Assembly (NCBI GenBank): GCA_029261155.1
Contig: JAJDBW010000014.1
Location: forward strand, 1-51,504
From: Nitrospirota bacterium
GTDB lineage: Bacteria; Nitrospirota; Nitrospiria; SBBL01; JAADHI01
DNA length: 51,504 bases
Direction of reading: 5' to 3'
Position numbers and translations under genes: made by a program
Shown here: piece after piece, positions 36,316-51,504 of the stretch
Layout of the letters: the number at the start of each line of letters is the position of its first letter
How positions within the stretch are numbered: position 1 is the stretch's first letter
The notes under the pieces: model-generated
The model's input: only the letters and a program-made list of their open reading frames with translations
Database searches by the model: none
What the model was told of the DNA's origin: nothing

Positions 36316-36555
36316 TTATTCGATAATATTACGTTCGATGGGATCGACCTTCACGCCGCGCTGCTTCATCCATTGCACGGCCTCTTCGATCACCGAGACG
36401 TCCCCGGTCAGTTCAAGATCGACCCAGCCCGTCTTTTCATTGACATCCGCTCGGCGGACATTCGTGACAATTTGATATTTCTTCCCCACTTCATAAATGA
36501 TCGGTTCTTTGATCTTCTCTTCGGGAAATGTGATGTGTACCTTTAAATTGGCCAA
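36316..36555 (-). CDS. NIL-domain protein
   Basis: A 79-residue stand-alone NIL domain (KVHITFPEEKIKEPIIYEV, then TGWVDLELTGDVSVIEEAVQW). NIL domains occur at the C-terminus of methionine importers, where they bind methionine, and fused to ferredoxins in proteins linked to anaerobic homocysteine formation. It sits between the CysO-like carrier and the second MoeB-like enzyme, which points to sulfur amino acid metabolism. The start is a TTG at 36555 preceded by AAGGAGAG. Confidence 0.85.
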   Translation of the reverse strand: MANLKVHITFPEEKIKEPIIYEVGKKYQIVTNVRRADVNEKTGWVDLELTGDVSVIEEAVQWMKQRGVKVDPIERNIIE

Positions 36556-36607
36556 GTGCTCTCCTTCTTTTCGAGACGACCCGCTCGCGAGCCTCTGTCC
36601 AGGTTTC

Positions 36608-36877
36608 TTATCCTCCGGCTATGGCCGGAATTATAGACACCTCGTCCGAACTTTTCACCGGCGTTTGAAGTCCTTCGTGGAAACGGATATCTTCTTCGTT
36701 GATATAAATATTCACGAAACGGCGGAGGGCACCCTGCTCGTCGCACAGCCGACCTTTTATTCCCGGATAAGTGCGCTCCAAGGCCTCAATGAGGTCCGCG
36801 ACGTCCTTGCCTTCTGCAAGGACTTCCCCTTGGCCATCTGTCAGTTTTCTTAGCGGGGTGGGAATCCGTACTTTCAT
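36608..36877 (-). CDS. CysO-like ubiquitin-fold sulfur carrier ending in Gly-Gly
   Basis: An 89-residue MoaD/ThiS-superfamily protein with free C-terminal Gly88-Gly89. The segment [14 protein letters not shown] and the end IIPAIAGG strongly resemble mycobacterial CysO as I remember it. CysO's thiocarboxylate gives sulfide to CysM for cysteine synthesis. It begins inside the stop codon of threonine synthase (TAATG at 36877) and is followed by NIL and MoeB-like genes. It is therefore probably charged by one of the two MoeB-like enzymes. No Mec+-type JAMM peptidase, needed in Mycobacterium to release cysteine from CysO, is in the window. Confidence 0.9.
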
Positions 36878-38133
36878 TATCGATCTCCTTCTTCTTTCAG
36901 CGCATCGCTTTTTTTCAAGGCCTCCTGAAAACTCATGAGGCTGGGTTGAATTAGCCAGGGCGCGCCCACGGAAGGCGCAATGGCCTCCTGCGTTTTTAAG
37001 CCGTTTCCGGTAATATAGGCCACGACAGATTCGTCGCGCTTGAAGACCCCTTGTTCCGCCAGTTTTTTCAAAACGGCGATGGTCACGCCGCCAGCGGTTT
37101 CAGCAAAAATCCCTTCTTTTTGCGCCAACAGCATCATGCCTTGAACCACCGCTTCATCGCTCACCGATTCGATCAGACCGCCGCTCTCCCGCGCCACTTT
37201 AACGGCATAGAAACCGTCGGCCGGATTCCCGATGGCCAAGGACTTCGCAATGGTTTTGGGCTTGACCGGTTTAATAAAATCACGTTTTTCTTTAAAGGCC
37301 TCGGCCACGGGCGAGCAGCCTTCCGCCTGGGCGCCGTGGATCTTCGTGACCACAGGCCCCACAAGGCCGAGGCTTTCAAACTCGTGAAAGCCTTTGTAGA
37401 TTTTTGTCAAAAGGGAGCCCGAGGCGATGGGCACCACCACGTGGTCCGGCGCTTGCCAATCAAGATATTCCATCGTTTCGTAGGCCAGCGTTTTGGAGCC
37501 TTCCGAATAATAGGGGCGGATATTAATGTTCACAAAGGCCCAGGGATACTCGCCCGCCACCTCGCTGCACAAGCGGTTGACATCGTCATAGTTGCCTTCG
37601 ACGGCCACCACATTGGGCTTGTAAACCAAGTTGCCCAGGATTTTTCCCGCCTCTAAATCGGAGGGAATGAACACAAAACAACGCAGGCCCGATTCGGCGG
37701 CATGGGCCGAAACGGAATTGGCGAGGTTTCCGGTGGAGGCGCAGGCCACGGTATCGAAACCCAATTCCTTCGCCCGCGTCAGGGCCACGGCGACCACACG
37801 ATCTTTAAAGGAAAGCGTGAGGCAATTGACCGTGTCGTTCTTTAAGTAAAGGCGATCGAGGCCCAAGATCCGGCCCAAATTTTTCGCATGAATCATCGGG
37901 GTAAAGCCCGCATTCAGTCCGGCTGTGGGCTCGCCTTCGATGGGCAATAAATCTTTGTAACGCCAGAGGCTCTTGGGACCCTGTTGAATTTTTTCCTTAG
38001 AGATAACGGAGCGAATCGCATCGTAGTTGTACGCCACCTCCAAAGGGCCGAAACAGAATTCGCAGACATGAATCGCCTCGGCGGGGTAGGCCTTTTTACA
38101 TTCCTTACAAACCAGGCCTTTCATCTTATTCAT
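36877..38133 (-). CDS. thrC: threonine synthase (PLP-dependent)
   Basis: The start at 38133 ([14 protein letters not shown]) overlaps the preceding MoeB-like gene by four bases and gives 418 residues; a longer in-frame start at 38247 would lie inside that gene. There is an N-terminal zinc-ribbon-like part (Cys9, Cys12, Cys24, Cys27). The PLP lysine is Lys110 (LSFKDR), followed by [18 protein letters not shown] and a C-terminal ITGNGLKT. Threonine synthase converts O-phosphohomoserine to threonine. Its place between sulfur-carrier genes, overlapping both, raises the possibility that this homologue uses a sulfur nucleophile instead of water, to make homocysteine. That is speculation. Confidence 0.88.
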
Positions 38134-38975
38134 GGCGTGCCATCCCCTTTCGCTGCCGCAACCGTATCGAGATGACAAACCGGCTGTTCCGGCTGTTCCT
38201 GCATTTCCAGTTTTTCGATTGAGGGCTTCGTCCCGCAAAGCGGACAATCCGGATTACGCTGAATCTTAATCTCGCGGAATCGCGTCGTCAGCGCGCTATA
38301 GTTTAAGATGCGATTGGTCAAAAGACTGCCGATTCCCAGAATTAATTTTAGAACTTCGGTTCCTTGGAGCGTCCCGATAAAACCCGCAAGGGCACCCAAC
38401 ACGCCTGCCTCCTGGCAACTTGGCACAACACCGAGCGGCGGCGGGGCGGGGAAGACACAACGATAACAGGCCGATTCTTTGGGGACGATGGTAAAAAGTT
38501 GACCCTCGAAACGAAGAATACCACCATGCACAAGGGGCTTATTCGCAAAAAAAGCCGCATCGTTTATTAAAAATTTTGCTGGGAAATTGTCCGTACCGTC
38601 CACGATGACATCGTATTCGCCAAAAATTTGAAGCGCATTTCCCGGATTAATATATTTTTGATAAGGAATGACTTTGACATCCGGATTCAATGCCCCCACT
38701 TTATCCGTCGCTGACTTTACTTTAGATTGGCCGACATCGGCGGTGTGGTGGATAATCTGCCGCTGCAGATTGGTTAAATCAACGACATCAGCATCGGCAA
38801 TGCCAAGTGTGCCGACACCAGCCGCCGCTAAATAGAGCGCCAGCGGGGCACCAAGTCCACCTGCACCAACGATGAGCACCTTCGCGTCGCCGATCTTCTT
38901 CTGGCCTTTCCCTCCCACTTCGGAGAGGATGATATGCCTGCTATAGCGTACAAGTTGCTCTTCCGTAAAAGCCAT
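38130..38975 (-). CDS. MoeB/ThiF-family E1-like sulfur-carrier adenylyltransferase (first copy)
   Basis: A 281-residue enzyme with ATP loop VGAGGLGAP (36-44), DADVVDLTNLQRQ, zinc pairs Cys170/Cys173 and Cys244/Cys247, and catalytic Cys187 in PSCQEAGVLG. It starts 13 bases after the stop of the ThiS-CysK fusion and overlaps thrC by four bases. It is a near-parallel copy of the gene at 35454-36278, with a different Gln/Glu-rich C-terminal tail (about 255-281). It should activate carrier C-termini as acyl-adenylates before sulfur transfer. No rhodanese domain is present. Confidence 0.92.
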   Translation of the reverse strand: MAFTEEQLVRYSRHIILSEVGGKGQKKIGDAKVLIVGAGGLGAPLALYLAAAGVGTLGIADADVVDLTNLQRQIIHHTADVGQSKVKSATDKVGALNPDVKVIPYQKYINPGNALQIFGEYDVIVDGTDNFPAKFLINDAAFFANKPLVHGGILRFEGQLFTIVPKESACYRCVFPAPPPLGVVPSCQEAGVLGALAGFIGTLQGTEVLKLILGIGSLLTNRILNYSALTTRFREIKIQRNPDCPLCGTKPSIEKLEMQEQPEQPVCHLDTVAAAKGDGTP

Positions 38976-38988
38976 CGTTCCCTACTTT

Positions 38989-40128
38989 TTAGATGTTGAA
39001 ATATTTTTCGATGCTGATGTAACGCTCGCCCGTATCGGGCAAGATCGTGACGACGGTTTTATCTTTGCCCAATTCCTGCGCCACCTGCTTTGCCGCCCAG
39101 GCGTTTGCACCCGAAGAAATCCCCACGAGAAGACCTTCCTCTCGCGCTAAAGCCTTCGCAGATTTATAAGCCTCATCATCCGTTACAACAATTACGCGGT
39201 CGATGATGCTTCGGTTTAAAATATCCGGAATAAAACCGGCGCCAATCCCCTGAATTTTGTGCGGACCTGGATCTCCCCCTGAAAGGACCGCACACGTGGA
39301 CGGTTCGACGGCAATAATCTGTACTTTGGGGTTTTTGGCCTTTAAGACCTCTCCAACGCCGGTAATCGTACCCCCCGTCCCCACACCTGCGACAAAAGCA
39401 TCAACCGGCGCATCCAAGGCTTCCAATATTTCCGGACCCGTCGTTTGGCGATGGACTTCAGGATTGGCCGGATTGGAAAACTGTCCCGGCATGTAATAAT
39501 TCGAATTTTGCGAGATAATATTTTCCGCCTCTTTAATCGCCCCTCGCATGCCCTCCCAGGCCGGAGTTAGTACCAGTTGCGCCCCATAGGAAGAAAGCAG
39601 GCTTGCGCGCTCCAAACTCATCGATTCGGGCATCACCAAGATCAATTTATACTTTCTGACTGCCGCAACGAGGGCCAAGCCAATCCCCGTGTTACCACTC
39701 GTGGGTTCAACAATGGTCATTCCCGGTTTCAATCGGCCAGAGGCCTCAGCCGCCTCGATCATGCTGACGCAGATACGGTCTTTGACGCTGCCTCCCGGAT
39801 TAAAATACTCGACCTTCGCAAAAATACGGGCCGCTGGGGGCTTCGAGAAATATTTAATCTCGATCAGTGGCGTCTTCCCAATTAAGGTTGTAATATCGGA
39901 AGCATGCTTGGTCACCGATGTTTTGCCCTTCGCTCCGCCGCCCATAAAATAGATCAGCTCCAATTCATCGCCTTCCTGAAGAGGCGTTTGATCGAGATGG
40001 GCGCGATCCACCATTTTGCCGTTTAATTCGATCGTCACCATTCGCGGTTCAATGCTTTTCGACTTGAGCAGATCGATCAGTTTGGCTTCTTCAATGTCTT
40101 GATTTTTACCGTTAATTTTTAGGCGCAT
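38989..40128 (-). CDS. ThiS-like domain fused to CysK-type cysteine synthase
   Basis: One uninterrupted 379-residue frame. Residues 1-65 are a ThiS-type ubiquitin fold (TIELNGKMVDRAHLDQTPL, DELELIYFMGGG) with the glycine triplet at 63-65. A short linker leads to a complete fold-type II cysteine synthase from about 80: PLP Lys116 (NPGGSVKDR), TSGNTG loop, QTTGPEI, GTGGTITG and SSGANAWAA. The CysK-like residues are conserved, so it should use O-acetylserine. In normal ThiS the GG is C-terminal and is charged with sulfur. Here it is internal, so either proteolysis frees it or the domain is a docking module. Overall this is consistent with carrier-dependent cysteine synthesis. Its strong promoter lies at 40169-40198. 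Confidence 0.9.
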   Translation of the reverse strand: MRLKINGKNQDIEEAKLIDLLKSKSIEPRMVTIELNGKMVDRAHLDQTPLQEGDELELIYFMGGGAKGKTSVTKHASDITTLIGKTPLIEIKYFSKPPAARIFAKVEYFNPGGSVKDRICVSMIEAAEASGRLKPGMTIVEPTSGNTGIGLALVAAVRKYKLILVMPESMSLERASLLSSYGAQLVLTPAWEGMRGAIKEAENIISQNSNYYMPGQFSNPANPEVHRQTTGPEILEALDAPVDAFVAGVGTGGTITGVGEVLKAKNPKVQIIAVEPSTCAVLSGGDPGPHKIQGIGAGFIPDILNRSIIDRVIVVTDDEAYKSAKALAREEGLLVGISSGANAWAAKQVAQELGKDKTVVTILPDTGERYISIEKYFNI

Positions 40129-40168
40129 TGCTCTATTGCTCGCAGAAATCGTAAAACGTAAAGTCCTT

Positions 40169-40198
40169 TATTTATCAGATATATCGCGCTATTGTCAA
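40169..40198 (-). promoter_or_regulatory. sigma70-type promoter of the sulfur-transfer operon
   Basis: Leftward: perfect TTGACA (40198-40193), 18-base spacer, TAAATA (40174-40169). The predicted start is about 35 bases before the ATG at 40128. It is the only strong promoter seen ahead of the six sulfur genes, which follow with gaps of 13, -4, -1, 52 and 37 bases. Confidence 0.55.
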
Positions 40199-40306
40199 GA
40201 AAGTGGCGCATTTGTGAAATTCGTCTCTAGATCTTGAAAAAAACCTTAATTATCACCTTTTTAAAATTCGACAAAACCCTCTTTAGCCCTAAAGGCAAAG
40301 TGGATC

Positions 40307-41122
40307 TTAATCTTTGCCAAGGGCCTTGAAAAACCGGCGGATTCGAGTCGCATTGGCGCCGACATCACTCCGTCCGACACGCGAGGCGGAACGAATGTCC
40401 AGGCGGCTTCCCGTGTCCATGGGACGGATGCGGATAACGACGTCGTCCTTGAATCCGAACCACCAAGTCGTATCGGTCGCCTCAATCCGAAGAGCCTCCG
40501 GCTCGGCGGCGACAATTTCCCATTTGAGTGAATTCGCAACGGACAAGGCCTTTTCAAAGGCCACGGCAGGAGCCTCGGCCAGGAGTATCGTATCAATATC
40601 CGGATAGGCCGTCTGCTGTTGAATCGCAATTTCGAGACCGCCGTAGGCCGCGCCGTTCGGGGCCGCCTGCCGCGTGGGCAGCAAAGCCTCAAAGGAGGGT
40701 GGATCGGCCGTATCGGAGGTAATGTCGTGAATTCGCGGAACCTGCCTGGCCCGGTACAATGCCTGCGCCGGGATGCCAATCACCGCCGCGCTCAAGACCA
40801 GGGTGAATAGGTTTCGATAAAAGCCGAGCCGCCCTCGACCGGGCCGCGTCGCGATCATCCTCATGCCGGAAAGAATAAATGAGAGGATGGCGGCGTAGGC
40901 CGCCCATTTCAGGACGAGGAATCCGGTTTTAAATGACCACCACTCCCATCGGTGCCCCAAACCCGAGAGGACGGCGAAGCCCAAGGCCGCCAGACTTGTC
41001 GCGATCACAAAACGGGCGAAGATCCGATTCGGGCGCGATATCAAATCCCGCCTTTCGGGATTCCCTTCATCCCGTGCCTGAGGCCTCTCTTGCGCTTCGC
41101 CGGACATTAAGTCGTAATCCAT
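40307..41122 (-). CDS. DUF1499 membrane protein
   Basis: A 271-residue protein: two or three N-terminal membrane helices (about 35-60, 68-88, 100-120), then a DUF1499 domain (about 130-270). Its signature is DTILLAEAPAVAFEKALSVANSLKWEIVAAEP, a WFGFKDDVVIRIRP strand and SRLDIRSASRVGRSDVGANATRIRRF. The domain's function is unknown. The ATG at 41122 overlaps the DsbA-family gene by 16 bases. A second in-frame ATG at 41107 shares the TAATG junction and may be the true start, giving 266 residues. The two genes are thus translationally coupled. Confidence 0.88.
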   Translation of the reverse strand: MDYDLMSGEAQERPQARDEGNPERRDLISRPNRIFARFVIATSLAALGFAVLSGLGHRWEWWSFKTGFLVLKWAAYAAILSFILSGMRMIATRPGRGRLGFYRNLFTLVLSAAVIGIPAQALYRARQVPRIHDITSDTADPPSFEALLPTRQAAPNGAAYGGLEIAIQQQTAYPDIDTILLAEAPAVAFEKALSVANSLKWEIVAAEPEALRIEATDTTWWFGFKDDVVIRIRPMDTGSRLDIRSASRVGRSDVGANATRIRRFFKALGKD

Positions 41123-46326: not shown

Positions 46327-46965
46327 TTATTGAAGGGGTGAAAAAAGAATACTTCCCGCAAGACCCTCAATAATGAATTGCACTGCGAGTGCCGTAAGTA
46401 AGATGCCAAAAATACGAGAGATGACATGACGGCCCGTGACACCCAAACTTTTTTGAAGATAACTCGCACTCAAGAGGGCGCCAAGGGTGATCAGCAGGAC
46501 GGCAAACATCGATGAGATCACCGCTATTTTAAGGGCCGCATCCCCTCCCGTATTTGCCATTAAAAGGATCGAAGCGCCGATTGCACCCGGCCCTGCGATA
46601 AAAGGTGTGGCGAGAGGAAAGACGCTGATGTCCGTTTTCATTATGGCCTCTTCAGATTCCGCTGCTCTGGCCGACATTTTTTCGGGTAAAATATCGAACA
46701 CGCGATCGATACCAATAATCATCAATAAAATACCACCGGCAATTTTTAAGGCTTGTAAAGAGATGCCCAGCAGCCCCAACAGGGCCTCTCCAAATAATGC
46801 GAAGACCAAGAGGATCGCTGCCGAAACAGCGGTGCCGCGAATGGCCATCGAACGACGTTGCCCAGGTGTGTTTTCTGAGGTGATCGCAGCAAACATGGCC
46901 GAAACGCCAATGGGTCCGATCGTCGCGAAAAATGTGGTAAAGGAAATGGCCGCAATCTGTAGCAT
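46327..46965 (-). CDS. MarC-family integral membrane protein
   Basis: A 212-residue six-helix inner-membrane protein with the MarC/NAAT pattern: TTFFATIGPIGVSAMFAAIT (helix 1), LLGISLQALKIAGGILLMIIGID (helices 2-3) and PLATPFIAGPGAIGASILL. It ends with RIFGILLTALAVQFIIEGL. MarC proteins were once linked to antibiotic resistance, but their function is unknown. The ribosome site is weak. It lies 115 bases upstream of the outer-membrane barrel gene on the same strand. Confidence 0.9.
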   Translation of the reverse strand: MLQIAAISFTTFFATIGPIGVSAMFAAITSENTPGQRRSMAIRGTAVSAAILLVFALFGEALLGLLGISLQALKIAGGILLMIIGIDRVFDILPEKMSARAAESEEAIMKTDISVFPLATPFIAGPGAIGASILLMANTGGDAALKIAVISSMFAVLLITLGALLSASYLQKSLGVTGRHVISRIFGILLTALAVQFIIEGLAGSILFSPLQ

Positions 46966-47025: not shown

Positions 47026-48198
47026 TCATTTTTGAGACCGAGGATAAAAAAGGGCCATACTATTTGTAAAACCGTGGAGGAAGGCCTTACTGCCGATGGG
47101 ACCGATCTCGCCCGCACAAAAAAAGCCAGCCGCAGGGAGAGGGCCAAGGTGATCTTGAAGGGTTTCGATGTCATGATGTTTACACGAAAAAAGGTTCTCT
47201 CCCCGACCGTTGCAGGTAAAAACCAGTGCGCCCTCGGGTTTGCGTCCCTCCATGCGCTGCTGTTGCAAGATTAGAAGTTCATTGAGGTCTTCAACGGCCG
47301 TTTCTGCGTCGCGCACATGAAATTGAATGCTCTGCCCCGCTTCAATGACATCGCCGATCATTCCTGCGCCCGTGTCTTGATCCAAGCGCATCAAGCTGCG
47401 TATTAAAAAATCACCCCGTTTGTAGCCTTTTTTTTGCTCGTCAATGGTCACGCCGATGAGTAAGGCTTGTTGAATTAAGCCCTGATCACGCGGAGAAGCA
47501 TTTTTGATAACTTCTTGGATCACTTCGATAAAAGGGCGGCCGGAGAGCTCATGAATAATATTTTCCTCCGCATGGGTCACAACAAAGACATCACCAATGG
47601 GGCGGCAACCTTGTGACACCACCGTATCGACGGTAATATCACCGGTTAGGGCAAGGCCCACGACACCTTCATCGTAAAACGTATCATCTAAAAAAAGGGA
47701 GTTTCCATGCGGCTGATTCGCACCGCTGGCGATACCGCCGATCATCGGGCAATTGGGATACGCAGCGTTAATACCATTCATCATAAAATTGATGTCCAAT
47801 ATAAATGGATCGGGCAAAAGCAGAAAAACGGGTTTTTCGTTTGGAAAGAAGTCGAAGAAAGCATGCCAATCGGAGGGCTCCTTTAATTCCGTCAAGCGAG
47901 ATTGATCGAGGTAGAATGGACTGATTGTGACACCGGGAAGTTTTGCGAGCAGCAAAGAAGCCGCCGGACGATTTTCAACCTCGACCTCGCCGCCGATAAT
48001 GCCCGCGCAGGTCCCGACCAGCAGATGCGATATGTCCACCTGCGCGCGAATTCCTTCTATCACTTCTTCCACCGATTCGTGAGACATCATAGAAAGAAAA
48101 AGAACCCCCAGGTCGTAGGTCCCCGCCGGGCCTTTCCCTAAAGCCGCGATTATGGCTTCGGGGTCAGAGGACTCTGTAAATCGATTTTCGAACTCCAT
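47026..48198 (-). CDS. stand-alone FIST-domain sensor protein
   Basis: The start at 48198 (MEFENRFTESSD) follows CGAGGTG and gives 390 residues; a start at 48270 is unsupported. Residues about 25-210 match FIST_N (GVLFLSMMSHESVEEVIEGI, LVGTCAGIIGGEVE, MIGGIASGANQPHG). Residues about 220-375 match FIST_C (GRPFIEVIQEVI, FLIRSLMRLDQDTG, GALVFTCNGRG). The end GFFCAGEIGPIGSKAFLHGF is the typical family closing motif. FIST domains are proposed small-ligand (possibly amino-acid) sensors, often joined to kinases or chemoreceptors. Here no output domain is attached. Confidence 0.93.
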   Translation of the reverse strand: MEFENRFTESSDPEAIIAALGKGPAGTYDLGVLFLSMMSHESVEEVIEGIRAQVDISHLLVGTCAGIIGGEVEVENRPAASLLLAKLPGVTISPFYLDQSRLTELKEPSDWHAFFDFFPNEKPVFLLLPDPFILDINFMMNGINAAYPNCPMIGGIASGANQPHGNSLFLDDTFYDEGVVGLALTGDITVDTVVSQGCRPIGDVFVVTHAEENIIHELSGRPFIEVIQEVIKNASPRDQGLIQQALLIGVTIDEQKKGYKRGDFLIRSLMRLDQDTGAGMIGDVIEAGQSIQFHVRDAETAVEDLNELLILQQQRMEGRKPEGALVFTCNGRGENLFSCKHHDIETLQDHLGPLPAAGFFCAGEIGPIGSKAFLHGFTNSMALFYPRSQK

Positions 48199-48499
48199 GT
48201 TTTCACCTCGATCCGCGGTTCTGTTCCATCTTAAAATAAGATCAAACTCGGACTGGAATAACCCCGCCAAGTTTAAAAAATATCGGCGAGGGACAAGGGG
48301 ACTAGAGCAAGCGCCCTTGTTTATATGAGGAGATTAAAACGCATTATAGTAACCTACTGCTTATGAAGCGTCAAATAATATTCCCTAAATACGCTGGGAA
48401 TCATTCAGATGATGACCCGAATGGGTTCGGGAAACTTGAATATTAGAACGATAAGTTCTTCTTGCAGAAGAGCGCGATCATAAGATATTCTCATGCGCC
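48199..48499. other. divergent intergenic region between FIST and C39-like genes
   Basis: Three hundred bases with no supported gene. The promoters of both divergent genes should lie here. The C39-like start has no clear Shine-Dalgarno. I see no strong hexamer pair and no long repeat. Confidence 0.5.
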
Positions 48500-49225
48500 A
48501 TGGCAAAACGGTCAAACAAGCAGCTTAAGCTCGCGGTGCAAGCCCAGCCTGACGATTCCACCTGCGGCCCCACCTGCTTGCACGCCGTGTACCGCTACCA
48601 CGGTGACCCGGTTTCGCTGGAACAGGTTATCGCTGAAGTCACGCCCCTGGAAGGCGGCGGCACCCTGGCCGTGTGGCTCGCCTGCCACGCCCTGCGCCGA
48701 GGCTTCGACGCCCAGATTCACACCTACAATCTTCAACTTTTCGACCCCACCTGGTTCGGCGAGGGTGTCGATCTCCGCGAACGCTTAATCGCACAGGCCA
48801 AGCAAAAACCCAATGGAAAACTGGCCCTGGCCACGGAGGCCTATTTAGAATTTTTAGACCTGGGCGGGGTTTTGGATTTTAAAGAACTGACCTCCGGACT
48901 CATCCGAGGACGCCTCAACTGCGACCTCCCTATTCTCACGGGCTTAAGCGCCACATATCTTTACGGCTGCGCCCGCGAATTCGAGGACGAATACGACGAT
49001 ATCCGAGGCAAGCCGACGGGGCATTTTGTTGTGCTCAGCGGCTACGACCGGATGAGGCGCTTGATCATGGTCGCCGATCCCTTGCAGGACAATCCCCGCT
49101 TTGGCTCGCATTATTACAGTGTGGGTATGGACCGGCTGATCGGCGCCATTCTCCTGGGCATCGTGACCTTCGATGCCAACCTCTTGGTTATTACGCCGAA
49201 GAAACGAAAACAGAACTCCAAATGA
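48500..49225 (+). CDS. C39-like papain-fold peptidase
   Basis: A 241-residue cytoplasmic protein, no signal or membrane segment, with a papain-like triad. Cys22 lies in DDSTCGPTCLHAVYRYHG, His175 in PTGHFVVLSGYD, and Asp193 in VADPLQD. This is the C39 (bacteriocin-leader peptidase) arrangement, but free of the ABC transporter that normally carries it. Its stop overlaps the start of an RLAN/ATP-grasp ligase by four bases, so the two proteins probably act together. A role in trimming or transferring peptides for the ligase is inference. Confidence 0.88.
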   Translation: MAKRSNKQLKLAVQAQPDDSTCGPTCLHAVYRYHGDPVSLEQVIAEVTPLEGGGTLAVWLACHALRRGFDAQIHTYNLQLFDPTWFGEGVDLRERLIAQAKQKPNGKLALATEAYLEFLDLGGVLDFKELTSGLIRGRLNCDLPILTGLSATYLYGCAREFEDEYDDIRGKPTGHFVVLSGYDRMRRLIMVADPLQDNPRFGSHYYSVGMDRLIGAILLGIVTFDANLLVITPKKRKQNSK

Positions 49226-50691
49226 AGATCTTAATCGTCGTGGAAAATCCCAAGCTTTGGCCCCTCGACATCCCCGGCACGGAAGTCGTCCAGGCCAAAG
49301 ATTATTTGACGGACCGGCGCTTCGTCACCCTCCGTCGTGCCAAGGTCTTTAATCTCTGCCGGACCTACGGCTACCAAACCGTGGGCTATTATGTTTCGCT
49401 GCTCGCTGCCGCGCGCGGTCACAAGCCCTTGCCCGATGTCACGACGATTCAAGACCTGCGGCTATCGCCCCTGGTCCGCATCGTCTCCGAGGAACTCGAA
49501 GACCAGATTCAAAAGGTGCTCGCGCCCATCAAATCGGCGCGCTTCACCCTGAGCATCTACTTCGGGCGGAATCTGGCCAAGCGCTACGACCGCCTCTGCC
49601 AGTTGCTCTTTAATCATTTTTCCGATCCCTTGTTGCGCGCCGAATTTATCTTTAAAAACGCGACATGGCAAATGAGCAATTTAAGACACATCGCCGTGGG
49701 CGAGGTGCCCGAAACGCATCGCGACTTCCTCGTCGCCCAGGCCCAGCGTTATTTCGCGCGCCCGGCCCGTTCCGATCCCAAGCGGCCCCGCTACGACTTG
49801 GCCATTCTCTACGATTCGGAAGAGGTCGATTCACCCTCGGACGAACGCGCCATCAAACGCTTTATCAAGGCCGGAAAGCCCTTCAACATGAGCGTTTCGA
49901 TTATTGGAAAGGAGGACTTCGGCCGCATCGCCGAATTCGACGCCCTCTTCATCCGCCAAACGACCTATGTGAATCACCACACCTATCGCTTCGCCAGCCG
50001 GGCCCAGGCGGAAGGCCTGGTCGTCATCGACGATCCGGAATCCATCGTGCGCTGCACGAACAAGGTCTATCAGGCCGAACTCTTCGACCGAAACAATATT
50101 CCCTGCCCTCGCACCCTCGTCGTGCACCCCGACAACGCGCACATCGTCGGAGAAACCCTTGGCTTCCCTTGCGTGCTCAAACGGCCCGACAGCTCTTTTT
50201 CGGCAGGCGTGGTCAAGGCCAAGGACCCGGAGGAATTGAAGGCGCACCTGACGGCCTTCTTCGATAAATCGGAGCTGGTGGTCGCCCAGGCTTTTCAGCC
50301 CTCGGATTTCGATTGGCGCGTCGGCGTCTTGGGCGGCAGGGCCCTTTATCTCTGTAAATATTACATGGCGGCTGGGCACTGGCAGATACAAAAGGCCTAT
50401 GGCTCAAGCGTCCGGCGCTACGGCAAGGTTGAAACCCTCGCCATCCAGGACGGCCCGGAGGGCGTCGTCGCCCTGGGGGTCCGCGCCTCGAATCTTATTG
50501 GCCAGGGCCTCTACGGGGTCGATATTAAAGAAATCAACGGAAAATATTTTGTGATGGAAATCAACGACAACCCCAGCATCGAGGCGGGCTGCGAGGATGC
50601 CGTGCTCAAGGACGCCCTGTATGACGAGCTTATGGGCTATTTCTACGAACGCCTCAATCAACACGAAAGCCCAATGGAGGCGGGACACTAA
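49222..50691 (+). CDS. RLAN-domain RimK-type ATP-grasp ligase
   Basis: A 489-residue enzyme. The N-terminal RLAN domain (about 1-180: TRRAKVFNLCRTYGYQTVGYY-type segment, LSIYFGRNLAKRYDRL) is fused to a RimK-like ATP-grasp (about 285-475). ATP and metal contacts include FPCVLKRPDSSFSAGVVK, FDWRVGVLGGRALYLCKYY and the metal-binding DIKEINGKYFVMEINDNPSIEAG. RimK-type ligases form amide bonds with amino acids such as glutamate. The substrate here is unknown. ATG at 49222 overlaps the C39-like gene by four bases. An IS481-type element begins within a few bases of its stop codon. Confidence 0.9.
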   Translation: MKILIVVENPKLWPLDIPGTEVVQAKDYLTDRRFVTLRRAKVFNLCRTYGYQTVGYYVSLLAAARGHKPLPDVTTIQDLRLSPLVRIVSEELEDQIQKVLAPIKSARFTLSIYFGRNLAKRYDRLCQLLFNHFSDPLLRAEFIFKNATWQMSNLRHIAVGEVPETHRDFLVAQAQRYFARPARSDPKRPRYDLAILYDSEEVDSPSDERAIKRFIKAGKPFNMSVSIIGKEDFGRIAEFDALFIRQTTYVNHHTYRFASRAQAEGLVVIDDPESIVRCTNKVYQAELFDRNNIPCPRTLVVHPDNAHIVGETLGFPCVLKRPDSSFSAGVVKAKDPEELKAHLTAFFDKSELVVAQAFQPSDFDWRVGVLGGRALYLCKYYMAAGHWQIQKAYGSSVRRYGKVETLAIQDGPEGVVALGVRASNLIGQGLYGVDIKEINGKYFVMEINDNPSIEAGCEDAVLKDALYDELMGYFYERLNQHESPMEAGH

Positions 50692-50693
50692 GC

Positions 50694-51504
50694 TGTAAGA
50701 AATATGCGCGAAGTTTACAGAATTTCGTGTAATTTAACGAAGAGGAGGTTCTGTAGACATGGTGATGCACAAGCGGATCAGGTTAACGCCCCTAGATCGA
50801 CAGGAGATCTGGCGTTTGTGGAAAACAGGGCACTGGAAGGCCGCCGTGCTTTCCAATCATTTTAGGGTATCGAGACCAACGATTTACAAGGTTCTGGCGC
50901 GGGCCAGGAAACAAGAATTTTCTCCGCGCCGGAGTGTCAACAAACGCTTCAAGACCATGCAGTTCGGACTGAAGCGTTTAGCCAAGCTTGAAAAAACGCT
51001 TGAGGAGAAACGAAAACAGGAAGCCCGGCGATACAACAAGTCTTACTCTGGCGAGATGCTTCACTTTGATACGAAGCGCCTGCCCCTCCTTAAAGGAGAA
51101 GAGGCCACCCGGCCAAGAGAACATCTGTTTGTAGGCATTGATGATTTTTCTCGTGAGCTTTATGCGGGCATTTATCCGGATAAGACACAGTATAGTGCTG
51201 CTGCCTTTCTCCAGCAGGTACTCGAAGAATGCCCCTATACCCTGGAATACAGCTATTCGGACAACGGCAAGGAATACAAGAGGACGGCTGACCACGCCTT
51301 TGTGAGTTTATGCCGGGAAGCCGGGATGGGACAGAAGTTCACGCGCTGTAGTCGCCCACAAACGAATGGCAAAGCGGAACGGGTCATTCGGACCTTGATG
51401 GAGATGTGGCATAAAAGAGAACAATTTACGGATAGAAAGCAAAGACAGATCAGCCTGTTGCGTTTCATTAACTTTTATAATACCGTCAAACCCCATAAGG
51501 GCAT
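50694..51504 (+). mobile_element. IS481-type insertion sequence, cut by the window edge
   Basis: An IS481/IS3-like integrase gene begins at 50759. The sequence TGT at 50694, two bases after the ligase stop codon, would suit the usual TGT tip of IS481 elements. The right end lies outside the window, so the terminal repeat cannot be compared. Confidence 0.6.
50759..51504 (+). CDS. IS481-type DDE transposase (partial, 3' end outside window)
   Basis: An ATG at 50759, preceded by GAGGAGG, opens a frame of 248 codons without a stop to the window end. It has an N-terminal helix-turn-helix (LTPLDRQEIWRLWKTGHW, SNHFRVSRPTIYKVLARA). An integrase catalytic core follows with Asp104 (HFDTK), Asp168 (YSDNGKEY) and Glu207 (NGKAERVIRTL). 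The D-D spacing and HTH order suit IS481. No frameshift is visible in the part present. Confidence 0.9.
   Translation, partial: MVMHKRIRLTPLDRQEIWRLWKTGHWKAAVLSNHFRVSRPTIYKVLARARKQEFSPRRSVNKRFKTMQFGLKRLAKLEKTLEEKRKQEARRYNKSYSGEMLHFDTKRLPLLKGEEATRPREHLFVGIDDFSRELYAGIYPDKTQYSAAAFLQQVLEECPYTLEYSYSDNGKEYKRTADHAFVSLCREAGMGQKFTRCSRPQTNGKAERVIRTLMEMWHKREQFTDRKQRQISLLRFINFYNTVKPHKG

Follow-up and report, generated by a model that had tools for sequence, protein, structure and literature searches.

At the downstream end of the window (the whole of contig C6, 51,504 bp, from a genome in 90 contigs that is 95.6% complete) lie overlapping genes for a C39-like cysteine hydrolase and an RLAN/ATP-grasp ligase, for which a role as a joint functional module is strongly supported. 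In our view, the chances are about even that these genes form the 5' half of a four-gene cassette, C39::RLAN::GCS2::FGase, which is conserved, acts in the cytosol and serves to build and modify a small peptide or amide of the gamma-glutamyl type, not to process a ribosomal precursor; that the cassette makes or trims a small compound of some kind is probable. The pair looks complete, yet it is half a cassette, ending at an insertion sequence and the contig end. Iyer, Abhiman, Burroughs and Aravind reportedly defined the RLAN domain in their survey of amidoligases in 2009 and listed RLAN plus RimK-type ATP-grasp proteins beside C39-like peptidase, GNAT, GCS2 or FGase genes. On that account the kind of cassette is already known, and what is new here is a truncated copy, which differs from those neighbourhoods in having no GCS2 and FGase in its assembly and an insertion sequence directly after it. 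A literature search gave no paper on the RLAN/C39/GCS2/FGase set and no functional study.

The two reading frames are present as the first-pass annotation had described them, sharing 4 bp (ATGA), and the Pfam assignments agree with it (Table 1). The downstream protein carries RLAN N-terminal to a RimK-type ATP-grasp domain, the arrangement that defines its family and the one that had been recognised from the translation, and no NCBIfam equivalog fits either protein. The peptidase had been described as free of any transporter and of a signal peptide, and we find the same: Pfam detects no ABC-transporter domain in this stand-alone protein, which is not the N-terminal domain of an ABC exporter, as the peptidases of family C39 that cleave double-glycine leaders are, and direct inspection of its N-terminus (MAKRSNKQLKLAVQAQPDD) reveals no signal-like hydrophobic stretch. 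Neither a forward promoter-like nor a terminator-like site was found in 48190-48560, and an Rfam search gave no match. On the opposite strand, outside the cassette, the window encodes a FIST sensor-domain protein (FIST and FIST_C; 47026-48198, minus strand) and a MarC-family membrane protein (46327-46965, minus strand).

Table 1. Features at the downstream end of the window, with the evidence for each.
Feature	Position	Strand	Evidence
C39-like (papain-fold) cysteine hydrolase, 241 aa	48500..49225	+	Pfam (Peptidase_C39_2, 35.9 bits, cut-off 24; Peptidase_C39, 28.3 bits, cut-off 22), conservation, structure model
RLAN + RimK/LysX-type ATP-grasp ligase, 489 aa	49222..50691	+	Pfam, alignments, structure model
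RLAN domain, residues 25-171	49294..49734	+	Pfam PF14401, 157.8 bits (gathering cut-off 25)
ATP-grasp catalytic domain, residues 280-455	50059..50586	+	Pfam PF08443 (RimK), 40.0 bits (gathering cut-off 21); invariant residues
ACTAAGC, left copy of the expected 7-bp IS target duplication	50687..50693	.	7-bp duplications of other copies
IS481-family element, 5' part, cut by contig end	50694..51504	+	rve/rve_3 Pfam matches; multicopy

Both proteins retain their catalytic residues. In the hydrolase, Q16, C22, H175 and D193 are invariant in 65 C39 relatives and in a second alignment (A2), and the Cys-His-Asp triad, with its preceding Gln on a papain fold, places the protein in peptidase family C39; the triad first read from the single sequence is kept in all these relatives. 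In the ATP-grasp domain, K281, K320, D434, E446, N448 and N450 are invariant in the alignment. The AlphaFold model of the hydrolase (pLDDT 91), compared with the PDB, matches the PCAT1 and ComA peptidase domains best, and also the pseudomurein endoisopeptidase PeiR and the glutathione-acting Alr0975, all with global, query-normalised TM-scores of 0.4-0.5, which make the fold class clear but not the closest function. For the ligase (489 residues, model pLDDT 88), the structures matched include those of the amide-forming enzymes LysX/ArgX, RimK and Ddl, with alignments that span about 300 columns; LysX/ArgX is the best fold match of the ATP-grasp part, at 20-21% identity. No solved relative, by sequence, covers the RLAN part, and we know of no function for this domain. 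Relative to the copies in the nearest relative, G157, both genes have a dN of about 0.15, saturated synonymous sites and a dN/dS well below 0.1, and have therefore been under purifying selection, although a dN of this size cannot date any recent relaxation.

In order to compare gene neighbourhoods, one genome per species was scanned for similarity with an alignment as the query, which returned at least 585 relatives; a scan with a single protein as the query returned none. The best 80 of these relatives, from about a dozen phyla as labelled in their records, were combined with three further loci of the same phylum and the window into a set of 84, which describes the window's own clade because it was picked by similarity to the window RLAN protein. 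In 78 of the 84 loci the gene immediately upstream of RLAN is C39, a pairing far beyond chance, so that the two genes are not mostly found apart in other genomes; GCS2 lies directly downstream of RLAN in 73 of 78, and FGase is present in 49 of the 72 loci with enough sequence, being missing in about a third. The annotation had taken the four-base overlap to imply joint function. The joint module is strongly supported, and neither of the two outcomes named beforehand as refuting it, a pair mostly apart and an unconserved triad, was obtained, but the overlap itself is not general, as the gap between C39 and RLAN ranges from an overlap to tens of bases.

To avoid the bias of selection by similarity, the RLAN Pfam model was also run on 369 genomes of a gammaproteobacterial class. 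It was positive in 81, and the 80 regions that were read comprise 17 with the GCS2 form (C39 stands alone in 16 of them, and the other has GCS2 only), clear GNAT-C39 fusion matches in 52, partial ones in eight, and three with neither form. Profile comparison shows the C39 parts of both forms to be homologous (E 8e-8 over 172 columns) and brings their catalytic Gln, Cys and His residues into register. In a tree of 162 RLAN-ATP-grasp proteins, rooted at the midpoint only, the two forms separate fully, the GNAT form gathering 62 tips with a support of 1.0. There are thus two RLAN clades, GNAT-C39::RLAN, which is without GCS2, and C39::RLAN::GCS2::FGase, and both window proteins fall inside the latter. 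A conserved third gene of the GNAT or glutamate-cysteine ligase-like type had been anticipated, and the neighbourhood comparison finds both, in different clades. The only fifth gene is a fusion of GNAT and a carbon-nitrogen hydrolase, in six scattered loci (L067, L060, L080, L081, L086 and L233), in the first of which it is placed between C39 and RLAN. RLAN-ATP-grasp ligases occur in many phyla, almost always beside a C39-like enzyme.

Within its own phylum RLAN is rare, scoring above the cut-off in four of 198 genomes, and the only genome of the same genus that was searched (G139) has neither an RLAN nor a C39 protein; because the distribution is patchy, it suggests horizontal transfer. The three other carriers (G157, G152 and G162) encode C39, RLAN-ATP-grasp, GCS2 (PF04107) and FGase (N-formylglutamate amidohydrolase-like, PF05013) in that order on a single strand, separated by very short gaps. 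The nearest, G157, belongs to the same class and shares 79% identity in both proteins, and the window ligase pairs with its counterpart there in the tree with a support of 1.0. On its contig C74 (L264), G139 encodes a different ATP-grasp protein next to one of 684 aa that shows an FGase-like match at its N-terminus; the two look like another amidoligase/amidohydrolase pair.

Where these relatives carry GCS2 and FGase, the window has an IS481-family element, which begins 2 bp past the RLAN stop codon (TAA, 50689-50691, itself contained in the ACTAAGC heptamer) and encodes a transposase (50759-51502). A full copy, as in contig C44, measures about 0.9 kb. The window's own assembly holds at least 16 left-flank and at least 13 right-flank copies, and many of its contig breaks are copies of this element. 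Elsewhere in the assembly, ten left and right junctions pair by identical 7-bp duplications, such as C74/C5 (CCTTACC) and C67/C45 (CCTTAAC), which allows ten pairs of contigs to be joined. The internal copy on contig C44, within the region 36500-40500 (L043), has unlike flanks, its left TGTCAGT matching the right flank of C16 and its right CATAAGG the left flank of C83, a pattern to be expected if two copies recombined or the contig was misassembled.

It is possible, if somewhat unlikely, that the pair is a non-functional remnant, left behind when the IS took out GCS2 and FGase, with decay now beginning in the two genes; this would be compatible with any function of the cassette. Protein and Pfam model searches find neither GCS2 nor FGase in the window's assembly, while the same models detect them in G157, G152 and G162, and neither gene occurs in the IS flanks retrieved, which extend for 5-6 kb each or as far as the contig does. 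In addition, none of the right flanks found carries the ACTAAGC partner of the window's element, and two close relatives, L113 (Polyangiaceae MAG) and L114 (Planctomycetales MAG), likewise keep RLAN-ATP-grasp with no C39, GCS2 or FGase in the flanks read. Against decay, both reading frames are intact, with all catalytic residues and the low dN/dS given above, the other RLAN clade has C39 and RLAN without GCS2, and in a draft genome of this completeness repeats such as the IS481 element are where the gaps lie. GCS2, which is not directly downstream of RLAN in the window, could lie in a gap, as could the FGase gene that follows GCS2 elsewhere; either explanation, an assembly gap at the repeat or a deletion brought about by the IS, is possible.

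Regarding the function of the complete cassette, carboxylate-amine bonds, gamma-glutamyl ones among them, are made by GCS2-family enzymes, and amides, via acyl phosphates, by ATP-grasp enzymes such as those of the RimK/LysX/GshB type; FGase-type enzymes hydrolyse N-acyl-glutamates, and papain-fold enzymes catalyse amide hydrolysis or transpeptidation. In the reading that we prefer, GCS2 would join the carboxyl group of glutamate, or of a similar acid, to an amine. The RLAN-ATP-grasp ligase would act next, as GshB does after GshA, and add another amide bond via an acyl phosphate. This product would then be hydrolysed or transpeptidated by the C39-like Cys-His-Asp enzyme, as glutathione is by Alr0975, and the FGase-like enzyme would take off a cap, either acyl or glutamyl. 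A role in making and trimming a small peptide or amide fits best because the cassette keeps a pair of ligases and a pair of amidases together over great distances, with neither a transporter nor a precursor, and it is further favoured by the recurring gene order, the invariant active sites, the ligase fold, nearest to amide-forming enzymes, and a C39 fold whose matches include Alr0975 and PeiR. Counted against it are the best C39 structural matches, which are leader-peptide proteases, at TM-scores that are only low, and the absence of FGase from about a third of the cassettes. The FGase-like partner matches PDB entries 2odf and 2q7s. For the GCS2 partner, a sequence search of the PDB at E 0.01 gave no match, and its similarity to YbdK-type models is only weak; since this protein scores far below all NCBIfam cut-offs for known carboxylate-amine ligases, the gamma-glutamyl nature of the product is extrapolated. 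A C39-fused GNAT takes the place of GCS2 and FGase in the sister clade, and because of this replacement we propose that capping, by acetyl or by glutamyl, may be a logic common to both clades. More tentatively, the cassette might make and recycle, in about a dozen phyla, an undescribed gamma-glutamyl or N-capped small peptide that is both distinct from glutathione and additional to it, the two clades capping the same core by acetyl (GNAT) or by glutamyl (GCS2), the latter removed by the FGase-like enzyme.

The main rival to small-molecule synthesis, which we consider unlikely but worth weighing, is protein tagging, in which an acceptor protein would be extended with amino acids by the RLAN-ATP-grasp ligase, as ribosomal protein S6 is by RimK, and the added residues would be trimmed or removed by the C39-like protease in the manner of RimB. 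The catalytic domain is RimK-like, RLAN could recognise the acceptor, and ligase/protease pairs of such logic are documented in RimK/RimB, which polyglutamylates S6 in Pseudomonas, and in RloC/RloA of the RloABC system (PMC12239564), with which the cassette shares a RimK-fold ATP-grasp ligase and a partner protease. It differs from both systems, however, in the extra RLAN domain, in a partner that is a cysteine and not an aspartic enzyme, and in GCS2 and FGase. The ligase scores below the RimK NCBIfam cut-offs (27.9 of 331 bits for the S6 glutamate ligase equivalog, and 70.1 of 143.4 bits), a constant second ligase together with an FGase-like enzyme suggests small-molecule chemistry, and no conserved acceptor gene was found beside the cassettes in the ORF clusters of 91 GCS2-containing loci. 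The same clusters contain no LysW-type carrier protein, which sets the cassette apart from LysW-linked lysine and arginine synthesis: although LysX/ArgX is the best ATP-grasp fold match, the 73.4 bits to the LysX model are far below its cut-off of 275.6.

The first-pass annotation had named a small peptide precursor as the missing piece, which would make the system a graspetide-like RiPP pathway, with the ATP-grasp enzyme cross-linking a small ribosomal peptide and the C39 enzyme removing its leader. Graspetide (microviridin-type) clusters do combine ATP-grasp ligases with C39 peptidases (PMC8939145), the graspetide ligase PsnB is among the structural matches of the window ligase, and PCAT1/ComA lead those of the hydrolase. 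Nevertheless, we regard this possibility as very unlikely because no short ORF recurs around the 91 loci, where the clusters obtained are close relatives or shadow frames, so that a precursor is largely excluded near the cassette; the missing piece is instead a GCS2-type ligase, with an FGase-like enzyme after it. Moreover, the C39 protein beside graspetide ligases is usually a C39-ABC protein, whereas the one described here is not fused to a transporter, and the graspetide survey (PMC8939145) does not mention RLAN. Finally, a substitute for glutathione synthesis, to which GCS2 plus ATP-grasp, with a papain-fold enzyme like the phytochelatin-synthase-like Alr0975, would correspond as GCS2-type and ATP-grasp ligases acting in series, is highly improbable, because 17 of 25 cassette carriers also have a GshB match with E below 1e-50 (the eight without a strong match include all four of the window's phylum). 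The cassette differs from GshA/GshB in a GCS2 well below the glutamate-cysteine ligase cut-offs and a RimK/LysX-like ATP-grasp enzyme with RLAN.

Since the gene sets are defined (GNAT-C39; GCS2/FGase) and the carriers include named organisms, among them Thiobacillus thioparus DSM 505, Blastopirellula marina DSM 3645 and Pontibacter oryzae, the metabolite or modification is directly searchable. Phages gave RimK-like partial matches only. Judging from gene order, the RLAN gene of P. aeruginosa is presumably PA1345, which appears in the literature searched only as a table entry for a Cpx site. Two MAG labels are doubtful, because the gene surroundings of L119 (labelled Rhizobium sp.) are the same as those of the Thiobacillus loci and L136 (labelled Klebsiella pneumoniae) clusters with gammaproteobacterial MAGs. 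A plasmid of Legionella adelaidensis carries, in the NCBI annotation, a RimK family protein, a glutamate-cysteine ligase family protein and an N-formylglutamate amidohydrolase, in an order that is partly the same.
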